Shown: piece after piece, positions 44,404 to 55,088 of the stretch
Layout of the letters: each line of letters opens with the position of its first letter
Numbering within the stretch: position 1 is the first letter of the stretch
From: Candidatus Aenigmatarchaeota archaeon
Lineage (GTDB): Archaea > Aenigmatarchaeota > Aenigmatarchaeia > QMZP01 > JAFGSV01
Assembly: GCA_016931255.1 (NCBI GenBank)
Contig: JAFGFG010000001.1
Span: 94,961 to 150,048, forward strand
Reading direction: 5' to 3'
DNA length: 55,088 nucleotides
Notes under the pieces: model-generated
What the model was told of the DNA's origin: nothing
What the model saw: the letters and a program-made list of their open reading frames with translations, nothing else
The model's database searches: none
Made by a program: the position numbers and the translations under genes

Positions 44404-45315
44404 ATGATACCAAAGGAAACGGCCGAGCTCTTCCTCAAACATCAGTACCGTTTCGCAGGCGAGCATTCGGCTGTCAAGATATGCGAATGGACCAAGAAGT
44501 CGCTGAGAAACGAAGGTGCATGCTACAAGCAGAAGTTCTACGGTATTGAGAGCCACCGCTGCCTGCAGATGACGCCGAGCGTTTCATGGTGCCCGAACCG
44601 CTGCGTGTACTGCTGGCGCGCGATAGAAAAGACAGAGGAAAGTCCGAAAACAGGAGAGAAGACAGACAATCCCAATGATATAATAGACAGATGCATAGAA
44701 GCGCAGAGGAAGCTCCTGACAGGCTTCAAGGGACTGGAAAGAGTCGAAAGGAAGAAATGGAAGGAAGCGCAGAACCCGAATCAGGCCGCTATATCGCTTT
44801 CAGGAGAACCGACTGCGTATCCAAGGATATCCGAACTCATAAATGAGTTCCACAGGCGGGGCTTTACAACATTCCTCGTTACCAACGGGCAGTATCCTGA
44901 GAGGCTTGAAGGGATGACAGAGCCCACGAACCTGTATATTTCTCTGGACGCGCCGGACAGGGAAACTTACAGGAAGGTGGACGCTCCTATGCTCAAGGAC
45001 TACTGGAAACGCCTGAACAGGAGCCTTGAGCTCATGAATGGTTTCAGCTGCACGAAAGTGATAAGGCTCACGCTCGTGAAGGGATGGAATGACCACGACC
45101 CCGAAGGCTACGCTGAGCTGATAAAGAAGGCCGGCGCTGACTTCATCGAGGTCAAGAGCTACATGTGGGTCGGCTACAGCCGCCTGAGGCTAAAGGAGAA
45201 AAACATGCTTTTACACGATGAAGTGAAAAGTTTCGCTGAAAAGATTTCTGAACTTACAGGATACCGGTATAAAGACGAGCAAAAATCAAGCAGGGTGGTG
45301 CTGCTGGCCAGATGA
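44404..45315 (+). CDS. taw1: 4-demethylwyosine synthase (tRNA-Phe)
   Basis: 303 residues, radical SAM. Cluster motif C63, C67, C70 (CPNRCVYC), further cysteines C27, C40 and C53 for the second cluster, SGEPTAYPRI and SLDAPDRETYRKVD. Makes the tricyclic imG-14 base at position 37 of tRNA-Phe from m1G and pyruvate. TATA CATTATATTAATAAG is 27 nt before the ATG. Confidence 0.93.
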   Translation: MIPKETAELFLKHQYRFAGEHSAVKICEWTKKSLRNEGACYKQKFYGIESHRCLQMTPSVSWCPNRCVYCWRAIEKTEESPKTGEKTDNPNDIIDRCIEAQRKLLTGFKGLERVERKKWKEAQNPNQAAISLSGEPTAYPRISELINEFHRRGFTTFLVTNGQYPERLEGMTEPTNLYISLDAPDRETYRKVDAPMLKDYWKRLNRSLELMNGFSCTKVIRLTLVKGWNDHDPEGYAELIKKAGADFIEVKSYMWVGYSRLRLKEKNMLLHDEVKSFAEKISELTGYRYKDEQKSSRVVLLAR

Positions 45316-49292: not shown

Positions 49293-50012
49293 ATGAAAGC
49301 TCTCTATATGACAGATTCCTATCTTAGGGAATTCGAGGCAACCGTCATGAAGGTTACGGACGGAAAATTCGTGGTGCTCGACAAAACTGCATTCTATCCC
49401 AACGCAGGAGGCCAGCCTTACGACACAGGAAAGATGACCAGGCTTTCGGACAGCGCTGCTTTTGACGTCGTGTTCGTCGGGAAGTTCGGCGGCGAGATAA
49501 GCCACGAGGTGAAAGCCTGCGGGCCTGACCAGATAAACGAGGGCGATACATTCAGATGCGAGATAGACTGGGACCGCAGGTACAAGCACATGAGGTCGCA
49601 TACGGCGTCCCATATAATAAGCGGAATAATAAACGAAAGGACAGGCGCGCTGATAACAGGCAACCAAATATCATCTGACAGGACGAGAATAGACTTCTCG
49701 CTCGATGATTATGACCCCTCGGTCATGGACAGCTTCGTGAAAGAAGCCAGCGAAAAGGCTGCAAAGGGCGCGGATGTGGAGGTCTCTTTCATAACGCGGG
49801 AAGACGCGGAGAAAGAGGAAAGCCTTTCAAAGCTCGCAAAAGGTCTTCCGCCGGGGATAAAAGAGATACGCATAGTCGACATAAAGGGTATAGACAGACA
49901 GGCTGACGGCGGCACGCACGTGAAGAACACGAAAGAGATAGGCCCCATAAAGCTCCTGAAATGCGAGAACAAAGGAAAGAACAACCGCAGGCTGTACTTC
50001 TCTATCGAGTAG
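49293..50012 (+). CDS. alaX: Alanyl-tRNA editing protein AlaX
   Basis: 239 residues: N-terminal glycine-rich barrel (FYPNAGGQPYDTG) and editing domain with HTASH (H103, H107) and GGTHVKNTKEIG. Hydrolyses Ser-tRNA(Ala). The residue before GGTH is Asp, where many family members have the zinc-ligand Cys. TATA TTTTTTATAATC is 26 nt upstream of the ATG. Confidence 0.92.
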   Translation: MKALYMTDSYLREFEATVMKVTDGKFVVLDKTAFYPNAGGQPYDTGKMTRLSDSAAFDVVFVGKFGGEISHEVKACGPDQINEGDTFRCEIDWDRRYKHMRSHTASHIISGIINERTGALITGNQISSDRTRIDFSLDDYDPSVMDSFVKEASEKAAKGADVEVSFITREDAEKEESLSKLAKGLPPGIKEIRIVDIKGIDRQADGGTHVKNTKEIGPIKLLKCENKGKNNRRLYFSIE

Positions 50013-50447: not shown

Positions 50448-50451
50448 CCAC

Positions 50452-50550
50452 TCAGTTGCGTTTCCCGTGCCTGCCGCTTCTCTTTCCGAGTATGCGCTTG
50501 ACGAACTTCCTGAAGCGCGTGGTGTCCCTTTCTGGGGAATGGTCTCTCAT
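50452..50550 (-). CDS. Possible 32-residue basic protein
   Basis: ATG at 50550 to a TGA at 50452, giving MRDHSPERDTTRFRKFVKRI and then LGKRSGRHGKRN. It is strongly basic, with 13 Arg or Lys. A minus-strand TATA GTTTTTAAGC is placed about 26 nt upstream of the ATG. The gap between the CBS gene and the next gene would otherwise be empty. Could bind RNA; no family recognised. Confidence 0.5.
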   Translation of the reverse strand: MRDHSPERDTTRFRKFVKRILGKRSGRHGKRN

Positions 50551-50604
50551 GATATTAGATTGCAGAAGTTGCTTAAAAACGGTCAATCCAATGAGAAATG
50601 AGTC

Positions 50605-50799
50605 TCACACGGAATTGATGTCCTGACAGACAGGGCGGCTTTCCTGAGCGAATCCCATCTTTAAGTAATTGTTCACCGCATTGTTGTATTCTTTCCACAT
50701 CCCAAGCCTATAGCATTCACTGATATCGTTTTCCAGAATCCTCTTCAGTGCAGGGAGCACGCCATACTCCTCGAATACTATTTCAGGTATTTCTTCCAT
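50605..50799 (-). CDS. Hypothetical small protein
   Basis: 64 residues, helical, with C at the C-terminus (RPVCQDINSV). No family recognised. TATA CTTTTTAAAG lies about 30 nt upstream on the minus strand. ATG 50799 preferred over a TTG three codons earlier. Confidence 0.55.
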   Translation of the reverse strand: MEEIPEIVFEEYGVLPALKRILENDISECYRLGMWKEYNNAVNNYLKMGFAQESRPVCQDINSV

Positions 50800-50923
50800 G
50801 ATAACCAAAATCTAATGAGCTGCAAAACTTTAAAAAGTGGAATGCATCCGATGGAGAATGAAAAAAGGTTACAACGGTTAAATTCTTAATTCAGTGAAAG
50901 GATAAGCTCTTTATGGTGGAAGG

Positions 50924-52039
50924 ATGATTATTCGATACAATAAAAAATATAATATTCACATTGCTCTAACCATAACTATTTTTATTATATTTTTCTTAGT
51001 TACCAATTCCAACCAATTAAGTAATGAAATATCAATTCTCCAAGATGTTATGAATAGCCAATCAGTGGAAATAAACTCTTTGAATGACCAGATTAGATTT
51101 TTAAATGAAAGTCTTTCTAAGACTAATTCGTCTCTTGAAATTGTAGAAAAGGAAAGAAATATTTTAGAATTTGATTATTCGAATCTAAGAGATGAGACTC
51201 TTGATTTGATTAACGATGTTGATGAATACAAAAAAGAAATTAGTGAATCATTAGATTGGTACAAAATGAACTCCATTTTAGACGATTCAAGTGATCAAGA
51301 AAACATTAAAATGTACATAGATAATCATTGCTTTGATGTCGATGATGAGTGTCGTATAAAACTCGGTTGTTTTTGGTTAATAAATTCAGAAAAACTTGAT
51401 TTAGAATACATTTATGATTATACACCGTCTGGAGATAAAATAAGTTCTATAAGTGAAATTATCGAAAATGGAGGAGGAGATTGCGAGGATTATTCTTTAC
51501 TTTTCAAGGCCGAATATAATTATGCTCTGAGTCAATGTGACGGAAACGCCATAATTTTGGAAGGATGGAAATATCCCGAAGATGGTGATAATGAAATTAA
51601 ATATTGGGCAACTTTTAGAAAATCATGGTACATCGATGATGTTGTACGAGTTGATATAACTGAAAATGTTTTTCCCAATATTGTTTGTGGATCTTTGTAT
51701 GATCCAAACATTGAAGAAATCTCTGGGCATTGTATGATAGCTTTTACCACACAAAGAATAGAAACGATTTCTGATTTAAAGTATTTGAATGATGCACCTT
51801 TAATTGAACCTCAGGATGGTTCTTATCAAGGGAAAATAAACAATGAGAATAGTGAAGTCTATTTATTGAATGAAGACACTTGGTACGATAACTCTGTAAC
51901 GTCTTGGATAGATTCTGTAATTACAGATACTGACTATTTTTTATTCAGCTACGATGAATTGGATTGGAACTCATATTCTTTATTCGAATCTCTATTGGAA
52001 AAAAGTGAATGGAAAATTATAAGTATGTTGGATGAATGA
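50924..52039 (+). CDS. Membrane-anchored transglutaminase-like protein, AT-rich
   Basis: 371 residues: an N-terminal membrane helix (12-28), a coiled coil at about 35-100, then a transglutaminase-like (cysteine peptidase fold) domain with C187 in GGGDCEDYSLLF and H269 in SGHCMIAF. Codon use is clearly more AT-rich than in the first 50 kb, which suggests recent acquisition. The substrate is unknown. First gene of the accessory stretch. Confidence 0.75.
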   Translation: MIIRYNKKYNIHIALTITIFIIFFLVTNSNQLSNEISILQDVMNSQSVEINSLNDQIRFLNESLSKTNSSLEIVEKERNILEFDYSNLRDETLDLINDVDEYKKEISESLDWYKMNSILDDSSDQENIKMYIDNHCFDVDDECRIKLGCFWLINSEKLDLEYIYDYTPSGDKISSISEIIENGGGDCEDYSLLFKAEYNYALSQCDGNAIILEGWKYPEDGDNEIKYWATFRKSWYIDDVVRVDITENVFPNIVCGSLYDPNIEEISGHCMIAFTTQRIETISDLKYLNDAPLIEPQDGSYQGKINNENSEVYLLNEDTWYDNSVTSWIDSVITDTDYFLFSYDELDWNSYSLFESLLEKSEWKIISMLDE

Positions 52040-52135
52040 ATTGACGTAGCATTATAATTAATTATAATATGAGTCATGTAGTTGTGAGAGCTAGCTTCGA
52101 CACCGATATAGATTCCATGAAAACGGGTAACTCAA

Positions 52136-52588
52136 TCACTTCTTTTTGCTGTGCTTTTCCAAGAGTTCTTCCATTTTCTTCATGACTTTCTTGATGAAAT
52201 CACTTTTCATGAATTCCTTATCTTTCTTGAACTCATTGATCTTTTCCTCTATCGTCTGTCCGAAAATCTCATCAGAAATATCAGGCTTATCATTCTCAAG
52301 TTTCAGTCTGAAAAATATATCATAAGTGATAGACAGCAGCCCTCTGTTTTCAGTGAAGAATATTCCAGATCCCTCATCAACTCTACCTATATCGGTAACA
52401 CCTATGCTTGATTCTCTTTCTTCATAATTTACGTCACGAGCTATTTCGTTCTCAAATATCATTAGCCTTCTCATCATATCCCTGAGTTCCCTTGGAGATA
52501 TTTTATTGTGGCCTATCCTTCTCTTCTTTGGTTCTATCCTCATATCAGATCTATCGCCCGTCTTCTCTGTCTTGATTACCCAATCCAA
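52136..52588 (-). CDS. Hypothetical protein with uncertain start
   Basis: 150 residues from a TTG at 52588, highly charged, helical C-terminus (KKVMKKMEELLEKHSKKK). The frame stays open upstream to about 52667, encoding ILGFSVPKELLKVSKKLEPY in good-looking coding style, yet no ATG or GTG is there. Either a rare start codon is used or the 5' end is damaged, so it may be a pseudogene. No family recognised. Confidence 0.45.
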   Translation of the reverse strand: MDWVIKTEKTGDRSDMRIEPKKRRIGHNKISPRELRDMMRRLMIFENEIARDVNYEERESSIGVTDIGRVDEGSGIFFTENRGLLSITYDIFFRLKLENDKPDISDEIFGQTIEEKINEFKKDKEFMKSDFIKKVMKKMEELLEKHSKKK

Positions 52589-52659
52589 ATCCTCAGCGTA
52601 TGGTTCAAGTTTCTTTTTGGATACCTTAAGAAGTTCTTTCGGAACTGAGAATCCTAGAA

Positions 52660-52956
52660 TCCTATATTGGTACTAATCCAGTATTTTTTTATCTATAGGT
52701 GAAGAGAATATCTGCATAGAAAAATATTTGATTATTATCTTATAAGGTTATACTGTACAACTTGAAATCTCGAGTATTCTGGACGGATAATAATAAGTTA
52801 TCCGTTCCTTAAGGGAGCCTGAAGTGGTTACGGATAATATACCCATCGGTGTTCTGCGAGCTGACGAGACATGATACATTACGCCCACTGAAAGAATAAG
52901 TGATGCTGTGTAAGATATTCGAACCAGCATTCGAACCCGCTATATACTAATGTTGT
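52660..52956. other. AT-rich gap with remnant-like reading frames
   Basis: No convincing gene. A 60-codon minus-strand frame at 52748-52930 starts inside the 56-bp repeat (MLVRISYTA) but shows no recognisable domain; the second repeat copy begins the same peptide and then stops. This suggests duplicated 5' sequence and remnants of a mobile element. Confidence 0.4.
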
Positions 52957-52958
52957 TT
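52903..52958. repeat. 56-bp direct repeat flanking fic, left copy
   Basis: Nearly identical (53-54 of 56) to 54155-54210, in the same orientation. It contains ATTCGAACC twice, 12 bp apart. It ends inside the Fic stop codon. The complement GGTTCGAAT resembles the tRNA T loop, so it could be an attachment site. Confidence 0.7.
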
Positions 52959-53898
52959 AATTCACCCCTGATTTAAATGTATGTTGTTCCATCAGCACTT
53001 TGGCAATGTAATGCACCATTGCTTCATCATTGCCCTTATCCCCTTCTTCAACCGCATCATAATACTTGATTTTATCTCTTAATTCTATAAAGAACATCGG
53101 GAAGTTGTTCTTCATCAATATCCAGTTCATTATAACTCTTGACGTTCTCCCATTCCCGTCAGCAAACGGGTGAATCCTGACTAATTTATTATGCAAGATT
53201 GCACCCAATTCAACGGGGTGCAGTTTCTTTCTAGTAGAATAGTACCACTGGAAAATTCTTCTCATTTCTTCTTTAACCTTTTCATGAGTCGGAGGGATCC
53301 ATTCCGAACCAGAAATCCTGACTTCATGATCCCTATAGCTGCCTACAATCTTGCAGTTAGTGTTTTTAGTGAGAAGTTCATGAATTTTCAGTAAAAACTT
53401 CTGATTAAATTCGCCCCCATACTCCTTCATAAATTCATAACAGTCCTTTGAGTTTATGGCTTCATTGTAATCGTTGGGGGTAGCACCAGCGGGAATAACG
53501 TTCTCTGTTAAAATCATGCTTGTTTCACGAAGGCTTAAACGGTTGCCTTCAATAGCATTTGTGTTGTATGTGAATCTCACAACAAAATCTTCTTCATACT
53601 TCTTCTTTCCAACAGCACCTAATTTTCCGTACCACTCCTTAAAGACCTCTTTCAAATCCTGCAATTTCTCTGCTTCTTCATTGCTCAAATAAGCATATTT
53701 AGAAGCAGGCTTCATGAGGCCTTTTTTCAACGCTTCTTTTTCAATCTCTACAACAGCCTTCTTTGTCTGCTCTTTTGTGGGGGGCTTGTCACCAACATAT
53801 TTTCTTATTTTCTTCCACTTCTTATCACTAGTCCTGAAGTTCTTTGTGACATAATAATATGTCTTGCTTCCCCGTTCAATCTTTTCTAAATAAACCAT
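52957..53898 (-). CDS. Fic-domain protein (AMPylase-type) with inhibitory helix
   Basis: 313 residues. The Fic motif HPFADGNGRTSR is at about 241-252 with the catalytic His, and the N-terminal inhibitory helix TNAIEGN (T113, E117) is intact, which makes it an autoinhibited class II Fic. Such enzymes add AMP or another group to proteins. A basic N-terminal region (residues 1-65) may bind nucleic acid or a partner. AT-rich, between direct repeats, with GGGCACA boxes before it. Confidence 0.92.
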   Translation of the reverse strand: MVYLEKIERGSKTYYYVTKNFRTSDKKWKKIRKYVGDKPPTKEQTKKAVVEIEKEALKKGLMKPASKYAYLSNEEAEKLQDLKEVFKEWYGKLGAVGKKKYEEDFVVRFTYNTNAIEGNRLSLRETSMILTENVIPAGATPNDYNEAINSKDCYEFMKEYGGEFNQKFLLKIHELLTKNTNCKIVGSYRDHEVRISGSEWIPPTHEKVKEEMRRIFQWYYSTRKKLHPVELGAILHNKLVRIHPFADGNGRTSRVIMNWILMKNNFPMFFIELRDKIKYYDAVEEGDKGNDEAMVHYIAKVLMEQHTFKSGVN

Positions 53899-54154
53899 AT
53901 GTATTGTATGGGCACAAGAATATATAAAGTTATTGTTTTTTGTTATGATTTTGTGCCCTTATATTCTGATATTTGCCTTATTTATGTGGGCACATAAATA
54001 TACAAATACTTTTAATTCTGTTTTATATTGTGCCCGTAATATGTGGGATTTCCTTGCAAAATAGGTGGCAAGTGTAAATTCCTGTTTCCCTGCCTTCTTT
54101 TCACCTATAAAGACTGTATTTGCCCCCATAGACCTTCTTACTCATTGCGCATTA
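53899..54154. promoter_or_regulatory. fic upstream region with four GGGCACA boxes
   Basis: GGGCACA occurs at 53910-53916 (+), 53952-53958 (-), 53988-53994 (+) and 54029-54035 (-), forming two inverted pairs of 49 and 48 bp. The first box lies between the minus-strand TATA (CTTTATATATTC) and the fic ATG, an ideal place for repression. The rest of the gap is AT-rich without a supported gene. Confidence 0.6.
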
Positions 54155-54210
54155 ATGCTGTGTATGATATTCGAACCAGCATTCGAACCCGCTATATATT
54201 AATGTTGTTA
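54155..54210. repeat. 56-bp direct repeat flanking fic, right copy
   Basis: Second copy of 52903-52958. It ends six bases before the first CRISPR repeat, so the array's leader-distal end lies at this boundary. Confidence 0.7.
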
Positions 54211-54216
54211 AATATC

Positions 54217-55088
54217 ATCTACAATAGTAGAAATTAAAGCATGCTTCTAGACAACCGTTTCCCTCATGCTATTTGTGTGAATCTACAATAGTAGAAATTA
54301 AAGCATGCTTCTAGACTTAGTTGGACCTGACGTCACAAATATTACATCTACAATAGTAGAAATTAAAGCATGCTTCTAGACCGAAAGATGTAGTCTGGCA
54401 GGACCTATTATCTACAATAGTAGAAATTAAAGCATGCTTCTAGACCGAAAAACAACTCGCCAAGTTGAAACATCTACAATAGTAGAAATTAAAGCATGCT
54501 TCTAGACCCTGATGTATGAACATCCCTGAAGATCAATCTACAATAGTAGAAATTAAAGCATGCTTCTAGACCTGTGACAGGTTCGGTGATATTCAGGATA
54601 TCTACAATAGTAGAAATTAAAGCATGCTTCTAGACTCATACATACGAACGTCTACACTATGTCTATCTACAATAGTAGAAATTAAAGCATGCTTCTAGAC
54701 AAGTGTCATGTTATCACGCTGTCAGTTTGATCTACAATAGTAGAAATTAAAGCATGCTTCTAGACTGAAGTCATAAAACAACGTGACTATGTTATCTACA
54801 ATAGTAGAAATTAAAGCATGCTTCTAGACGATAAAGAAATTTTATATTCCCGAACTGATCTACAATAGTAGAAATTAAAGCATGCTTCTAGACATCATGT
54901 AAGCGGCAACTTCCGGTACTAGCGATCTACAATAGTAGAAATTAAAGCATGCTTCTAGACCCACCGAGTAGTTGATATTTATGAAATGATCTACAATAGT
55001 AGAAATTAAAGCATGCTTCTAGACCTTCGATACCATTCTTATCACCGTCTTATCTACAATAGTAGAAATTAAAGCATGCTTCTAGACC
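54217..55088 (-). CRISPR. CRISPR array with Cas12a (type V-A) repeats, 14 repeats visible, continues past the window
   Basis: Fourteen identical 36-bp repeats start at 54217, 54281, 54346, 54410, 54472, 54536, 54600, 54665, 54730, 54794, 54858, 54925, 54989 and 55052. The 13 complete spacers are 26-31 nt and all different. On the plus strand the repeat begins ATCTACAATAGTAGAAATT and ends AAAGCATGCTTCTAGAC. On the minus strand it starts GTCTAGAAGCATGC and ends AATTTCTACTATTGTAGAT, the Cas12a crRNA handle (stem TCTAC/GTAGA, loop TATT). Therefore it is transcribed leftward, with the leader beyond the right edge. The last repeat on the left is not degenerate. Confidence 0.97.

Follow-up and report, generated by a model that had tools for sequence, protein, structure and literature searches.

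The window, by which we mean the whole 55,088-nt stretch of DNA analysed here, ends in a CRISPR array (positions 54217-55087) made of 14 identical 36-nt repeats and 13 spacers of 26-31 nt, the distance from one repeat start to the next being 62-67 nt. With 14 perfect copies of the repeat, the array is not a product of chance. The repeat reads ATCTACAATAGTAGAAATTAAAGCATGCTTCTAGAC on the plus strand and GTCTAGAAGCATGCTTTAATTTCTACTATTGTAGAT on the transcribed minus strand, whose 3' end is predicted to fold into the hairpin UCUAC-UAUU-GUAGA. Of seven further V-A loci retrieved by the Cas12a search, six have the corresponding handle AATTTCTACTNTTGTAGAT, which the present repeat matches. As is typical of V-A, a repeat of 36 nt ends in AATTTCTAC-N4-GTAGAT and alternates with spacers of ~26-31 nt, and both repeats and fold agree with an earlier note on this DNA, made from the sequence alone, which had described a V-A-type array with a perfect handle at 54217-55088. 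The last base of the window is also the last base of contig C7 (C7:150048 of 150,048 bp) and lies one base into the next spacer, so that the array is cut off by the assembly. On another contig of the same genome, C5, the right end carries two copies of the identical repeat after cas12a-cas4-cas1-cas2, and the middle of the array, between C5 and C7, is absent from the assembly.

54217..55087, minus strand: CRISPR array, leader-distal part; 14 repeats, 13 spacers; continues beyond the contig end
54217..54252, minus strand: last (trailer-end) repeat, non-degenerate
55052..55087, minus strand: one repeat unit as an example, GTCTAGAAGCATGCTTTAATTTCTACTATTGTAGAT; the final 19 nt make up the handle of the Cas12a crRNA (stem UCUAC/GUAGA, loop UAUU)
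Contig C5, L004:16064-16163: leader-proximal array end; two repeats and one 26-nt spacer

The host is an archaeon. Its 16S gene is archaeal, and the genes of the window include those for TYW1, for the archaeal tRNA C56 methyltransferase (aTrm56) and for AlaX.

44404..45315, plus strand: TYW1 (TIGR03972, 425 bits), an archaeal-type marker
49293..50012, plus strand: AlaX (alanyl-tRNA editing protein), a chromosomal gene that flanks the island described below

A HerA-like gene on C5 forms the left flank of the operon, and AlaX is the flank beyond the array, on C7. In the congener G108, a single contig carries the HerA-like gene (81% identical) and AlaX (74%), separated by 1.5 kb and in the order HerA - tRNA - pyrophosphatase - AlaX, with no CRISPR between HerA and AlaX and with surrounding genes that are largely those of the window in the same order. 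The right ends of C5 and C7 therefore belong together and, since the same repeat stands at both, array and operon make up one V-A locus. This empty site bears out the archaeal neighbourhood described in the earlier note, both contig flanks being archaeal and contiguous in the congener. It also rules out a chimeric contig, the join to bacterial DNA that the note had raised as a concern.

The effector and the adaptation genes

A family search of the whole genome (929 kb in nine contigs, 93% complete) returned one match to the Cas12a REC1 family, on contig C5. The operon genes cas12a, cas4, cas1 and cas2 are all open and each overlaps the next.

L004:9027-9641: MNT (nucleotidyltransferase) gene, upstream of the HEPN gene
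L004:9638-10174: HEPN gene, its stop 3 bp ahead of the cas12a start
L004:10177-14046: cas12a, 1289 aa (TIGR04330, 1523 bits)
L004:14031-14597: cas4 (TIGR04328, cas4_PREFRAN, 232 bits)
L004:14591-15565: cas1 (TIGR04329, cas1_PREFRAN, 391 bits)
L004:15562-15834: cas2 (TIGR01573, 41 bits)
L004:15835-16063: leader, 229 bp, between cas2 and the array

The cut-off of the Cas12a model TIGR04330 is 300 bits; the Cas4, Cas1 and Cas2 scores likewise all exceed their NCBIfam cut-offs, Cas4 and Cas1 being of the V-A type. Five Cas12a Pfam domains (REC1, REC2, PI, RuvC_1 and Nuc) score over their cut-offs. In the alignment, the RuvC/Nuc residues D895, E988, R1201 and D1238 are kept, as are the residues for pre-crRNA processing (H822/K831/K848, aligned to H843/K852/K869 of FnCas12a) and, in Cas1, E163, H224 and D236. 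V-A systems work without a tracrRNA, and the lack of any anti-repeat above shuffled background in the locus fits this type. The V-A effector that the earlier note had inferred is thus found in the genome, on C5, in the company of cas4, cas1, cas2 and the same repeat. Its suggestion that the Cas12a might be divergent did not hold up: the protein is 55% identical to a Bacteroidota Cas12a (L007) over 1,279 residues, with all catalytic residues kept. Cas12a2 is a separate, RNA-triggered effector family expected outside the Cas12a equivalog. Judged with the Cas12a model alone, the present effector lies far above the equivalog cut-off, and its identity as Cas12a2 was rejected.

The MNT/HEPN pair lies directly upstream of cas12a and may have an accessory role. 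At approximately L004:8835-8975, on the minus strand, there is also an open frame of 46 aa that has no Pfam match and shows a good ribosome site (MPKIELEIKAQIEKDIHEAFEAKL...). Its DNA is kept upstream of cas12a in the related locus of genome G188 (see below), where the frame is broken; it may correspond to a small regulator.

Related loci in a second archaeal phylum

In a scan of genome contigs, the best match to the present Cas12a (80% identity) came from KA32, whose record JAHYJW010000001.1 (L006) is labelled 'Patescibacteria group bacterium', a label that NCBI puts in Bacteria. The KA32 genome contains a full-length archaeal 16S (1313 bits) and, near the cas operon, an archaeal NAC and an archaeal-type MinD. 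KA32 is consequently an archaeon, which excludes a bacterial origin of the closest match, and its label appears to be wrong. Its 16S is only 68% identical to that of the present host over 759 positions, which places it in a different deep lineage, and KA32 is not among the results of the search of the host's own phylum. Counting only matches above the 300-bit cut-off, a full Cas12a occurs in one of 156 genomes of the host's phylum and in three of 371 of KA32's phylum; weak family matches of 15-17 bits, from further genomes of the two phyla, were discarded. Cas12a is rare by these counts, as the earlier note had claimed for V-A in archaea, but the occurrence of V-A in archaea is not new, as V-A is known in three archaeal Thermoplasmata strains, Methanoplasma and Methanomethylophilus (PMC7145573).

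Four archaeal loci (the present one and those of KA32, G188 and G196) have the identical 36-nt repeat; their leader is likewise conserved, its core being AATGAGTTTTAGA...TCTAAAATGA. Their spacers all differ, which indicates that each array took up its own separately. Between KA32 and the present locus, Cas12a is 80%, Cas4 91%, Cas1 90% and Cas2 96% identical; the last three proteins are 87-96% identical among the present locus, KA32 and G188. At the DNA level, the three other archaeal assemblies hold related, differing copies with 73-85% identity over aligned operon stretches. The KA32 locus resembles the present one in its repeat, its leader and a tRNA gene just upstream. It differs in belonging to another archaeal phylum, in its site (a tRNA-Gly(CCC) ~120 bp before cas12a), in its 27 repeats and in having no MNT/HEPN pair.

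Several details of the relatives deserve mention. Within the KA32 array (L006:12851-14612), spacers 3 and 18 are two bases apart and spacers 1 and 2 are ~75% alike; such near-duplicates probably mean that one and the same site in related invaders was sampled more than once. The G196 locus has a nucleotidyltransferase gene upstream of cas12a (L023:6274-7146) and a Bro-N (phage antirepressor-type) gene between cas12a and cas4 (L023:1246-2103). In G370, from KA32's phylum, an N-terminal Cas12a fragment (62 bits, not counted as a full Cas12a) stands beside a differing V-A repeat (L025:3-170; minus strand ...ATAATTTCTACTGTTGTAGAT), which points to a second V-A lineage in that phylum.

Exchange of the effector gene

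The locus of G188, a genome of KA32's phylum, combines close and distant parts. Its Cas4, Cas1 and Cas2 are 91%, 91% and 93% identical to the present ones, while identity drops to only 36% for its 1434-aa Cas12a. The two loci share 82% DNA identity over 162 bp upstream of the operon, no similarity inside cas12a except for a 66-bp stretch at the gene start, and again 85% identity over 2.1 kb from the start of cas4 to the second repeat. The trees disagree in the same manner: the four archaeal loci form one clade for Cas1 (100/99), with a G188 branch of 0.009, whereas for Cas12a the present locus, KA32 and G196 group together (100/100) and G188 sits on a branch of ~3 changes per column. Such a long branch makes the exact placement of the G188 Cas12a uncertain and leaves the contrast between Cas1 and Cas12a unaffected. 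Since the same repeat and nearly the same Cas4, Cas1 and Cas2 accompany so different a Cas12a, the simplest explanation is that G188 had its effector gene replaced while leader, repeat, cas4, cas1 and cas2 would have stayed in place.

Besides the identical repeat, the upstream flank is common to both loci; an HNH gene (L024:9075-9641) takes the place of MNT/HEPN in G188, and its upstream tRNA is a tRNA-Ser(GGA), where the present locus has an intron-containing tRNA. The G188 effector was also considered as a Cas12a2 and rejected, at 674 bits on the Cas12a equivalog and judged with that model alone.

Origin and activity of the system

Most members of the Cas12a family are bacterial, the closest full-length Cas12a beyond the archaeal group belongs to Bacteroidota (L007; 55% identical, with a Cas1 only 41% identical to the present one), and the 80% match in KA32 bears a Patescibacteria label. 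A direct and recent import from a bacterium, for instance from Bacteroidota or candidate phyla bacteria, instead of an exchange among archaea, is nevertheless unlikely. KA32 is itself archaeal, the four archaeal loci form their own Cas1 clade, and one genome-contig scan seeded by the present Cas12a contained no bacterium with the identical repeat and a >85% identical Cas1. We rather favour a horizontal gain of the cassette, which settled beside a tRNA gene; its most likely donor is an archaeon of low GC akin to the KA32 lineage.

The targets of the system were sought among viruses and plasmids, as the earlier note had proposed, and no protospacer, with or without a T-rich 5' PAM, was found. 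Against viral contigs, 20-mers from five of the present spacers and one KA32 spacer gave chance-level matches only, and the whole array retrieved nothing convincing from phage and plasmid records. Neither the same repeat nor a Cas1 relative was found on viral contigs. Self-targeting was discarded, as the array has no other match in its own genome.

This lack of spacer matches, together with congeners that do not have the system and its presence in a single genome of the phylum, could be taken to mean that it was acquired and no longer works. We consider such an inactive relic improbable: the four cas genes are open and overlapping with every catalytic residue kept, the repeats show no variation, not even at the trailer end, the leader is conserved, and the absence of spacers in common with KA32, G188 or G196 indicates separate acquisition by each array. 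A functional system would, by the established V-A mechanism, transcribe its array from the conserved leader that adjoins cas2. With its three processing residues kept, Cas12a would then cut the pre-crRNA at each handle itself, instead of another enzyme as the earlier note had considered, carry the resulting crRNA, recognise a T-rich PAM and, with its single RuvC site, cut matching double-stranded DNA of viruses or plasmids. Insertion of new spacers at the leader end would be performed by Cas4-Cas1-Cas2.

A low-GC island beside a tRNA gene

The cas locus stands out from the chromosome by its composition. GC is ~35% in the island versus 47-52% in the host, and third-position GC is 0.32-0.41 in cas12a, cas4 and cas1 versus 0.64-0.70 in host genes. 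Judged by these values, the locus is in all likelihood a foreign low-GC island, placed directly after a tRNA gene.

50450..55088, no strand: low-GC island, right part
Contig C5, L004:8745-16163: low-GC island, left part, with MNT, HEPN, cas genes and leader
52957..53898, minus strand: Fic/Doc domain protein (PF02661, 82 bits), adjoining the array within the island
54045..54150, minus strand: 106-bp direct repeat, right copy, just after the array
L004:8747-8852: 106-bp direct repeat, left copy, beginning 2-3 bp beyond the tRNA 3' end

On the left side, homology to G108 extends no further than the tRNA 3' end; for this intron-containing gene ARAGORN calls Leu, an isotype that is uncertain. The two copies of the 106-bp direct repeat are 75% identical and bracket the cas cassette. 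A duplication of the tRNA 3' end (attachment site) was looked for at the right island edge and not found, and the examined part of the island contains no integrase gene. A tRNA gene precedes the operon in all three loci with a known 5' flank (present, KA32 and G188). It is extremely improbable that bacterial V-A DNA was misjoined to archaeal contigs during assembly or binning, since, although the locus is divided within its array between two contig ends and there is an abrupt shift in composition at the border of the island, the left edge coincides with a tRNA 3' end, both outer flanks are contiguous in the congener, three independent archaeal assemblies contain related copies (those of KA32 and G188 with archaeal flanks of their own) and contamination is estimated at 0.04%.

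Two further observations concern this region. A gene for a LAGLIDADG-type protein (L038:7046-7471) lies just upstream of the intron-containing tRNA at the empty site of G108. In the window, a 59-bp direct repeat (95% identical; 52903-52961 and 54155-54213) is found on either side of the Fic gene. It contains two tRNA T-arm-like GGTTCGAAT motifs, and one of its copies directly adjoins the last CRISPR repeat; this pair may mark a second inserted cassette.

Discussion

The operon, the array with its leader, the catalytic residues, the chromosomal context, the foreign composition and the relatives in another archaeal phylum are all directly visible in the data. On these grounds we are highly confident that the window ends in the distal array of a complete V-A system, carried on the chromosome of a small-genome archaeon as a horizontally gained, tRNA-adjacent cassette whose effector was replaced in at least one relative. 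Rather probable, in addition, is a wider view in which at least two phyla of small-genome archaea are home to a distinct V-A lineage that circulates as a tRNA-adjacent cassette, with stable leader, repeat and adaptation genes and an exchangeable Cas12a, two proteins of only 36% identity serving one repeat. The novelty lies in the identical repeat and the about 90%-identical Cas4, Cas1 and Cas2 of a second archaeal phylum, including an apparently mislabelled MAG.

A complete Cas12a system in two small-genome archaeal phyla offers a concrete case of reduced, probably host-dependent cells gaining adaptive immunity. G188 further amounts to a natural experiment, in which one repeat, leader and Cas4-Cas1-Cas2 set is combined with two very different Cas12a proteins. 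This contrast bears on how the adaptation module and the effector are matched (PAM choice, spacer length) and on how freely effectors can be exchanged. With KA32 an archaeon under a Patescibacteria label, Cas12a surveys that rely on organism labels will miss archaeal members. We found no literature report of V-A in small-genome (DPANN-type) archaea, including Micrarchaeota, Woesearchaeota and Nanoarchaeota, in a search that left most subscription journals uncovered, so that this absence is not proof.

Among known systems, V-F uses a tracrRNA. II-D does so as well (PMC12669027). Both II-D (Cas9d) and V-F (Cas12f) occur in DPANN archaea (PMC12669027, PMC7694759), a group reported to be poor in CRISPR-Cas (PMC12988326); they resemble the present system as class 2 systems of small-genome archaea and differ from it in their effectors. 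The systems of Methanoplasma termitum and Methanomethylophilus alvus are also archaeal V-A systems, set apart by their published description as those of Thermoplasmata methanogens (PMC7145573). Their Cas12a proteins are reported to be 39% identical, a value as low as that versus the F. novicida protein (PMC7145573). With the V-A system of Francisella novicida, the present one has in common a single Cas12a with all domains and catalytic residues, PREFRAN-type Cas4-Cas1-Cas2, repeats of 36 nt that end in the standard handle, 26-31-nt spacers and no anti-repeat. It differs by its small-genome archaeal host, by its setting in a low-GC island next to a tRNA gene and by the MNT/HEPN pair that precedes it. 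The system itself is an ordinary V-A system; its host, its spread across phyla and the exchanged effector are the points of interest.
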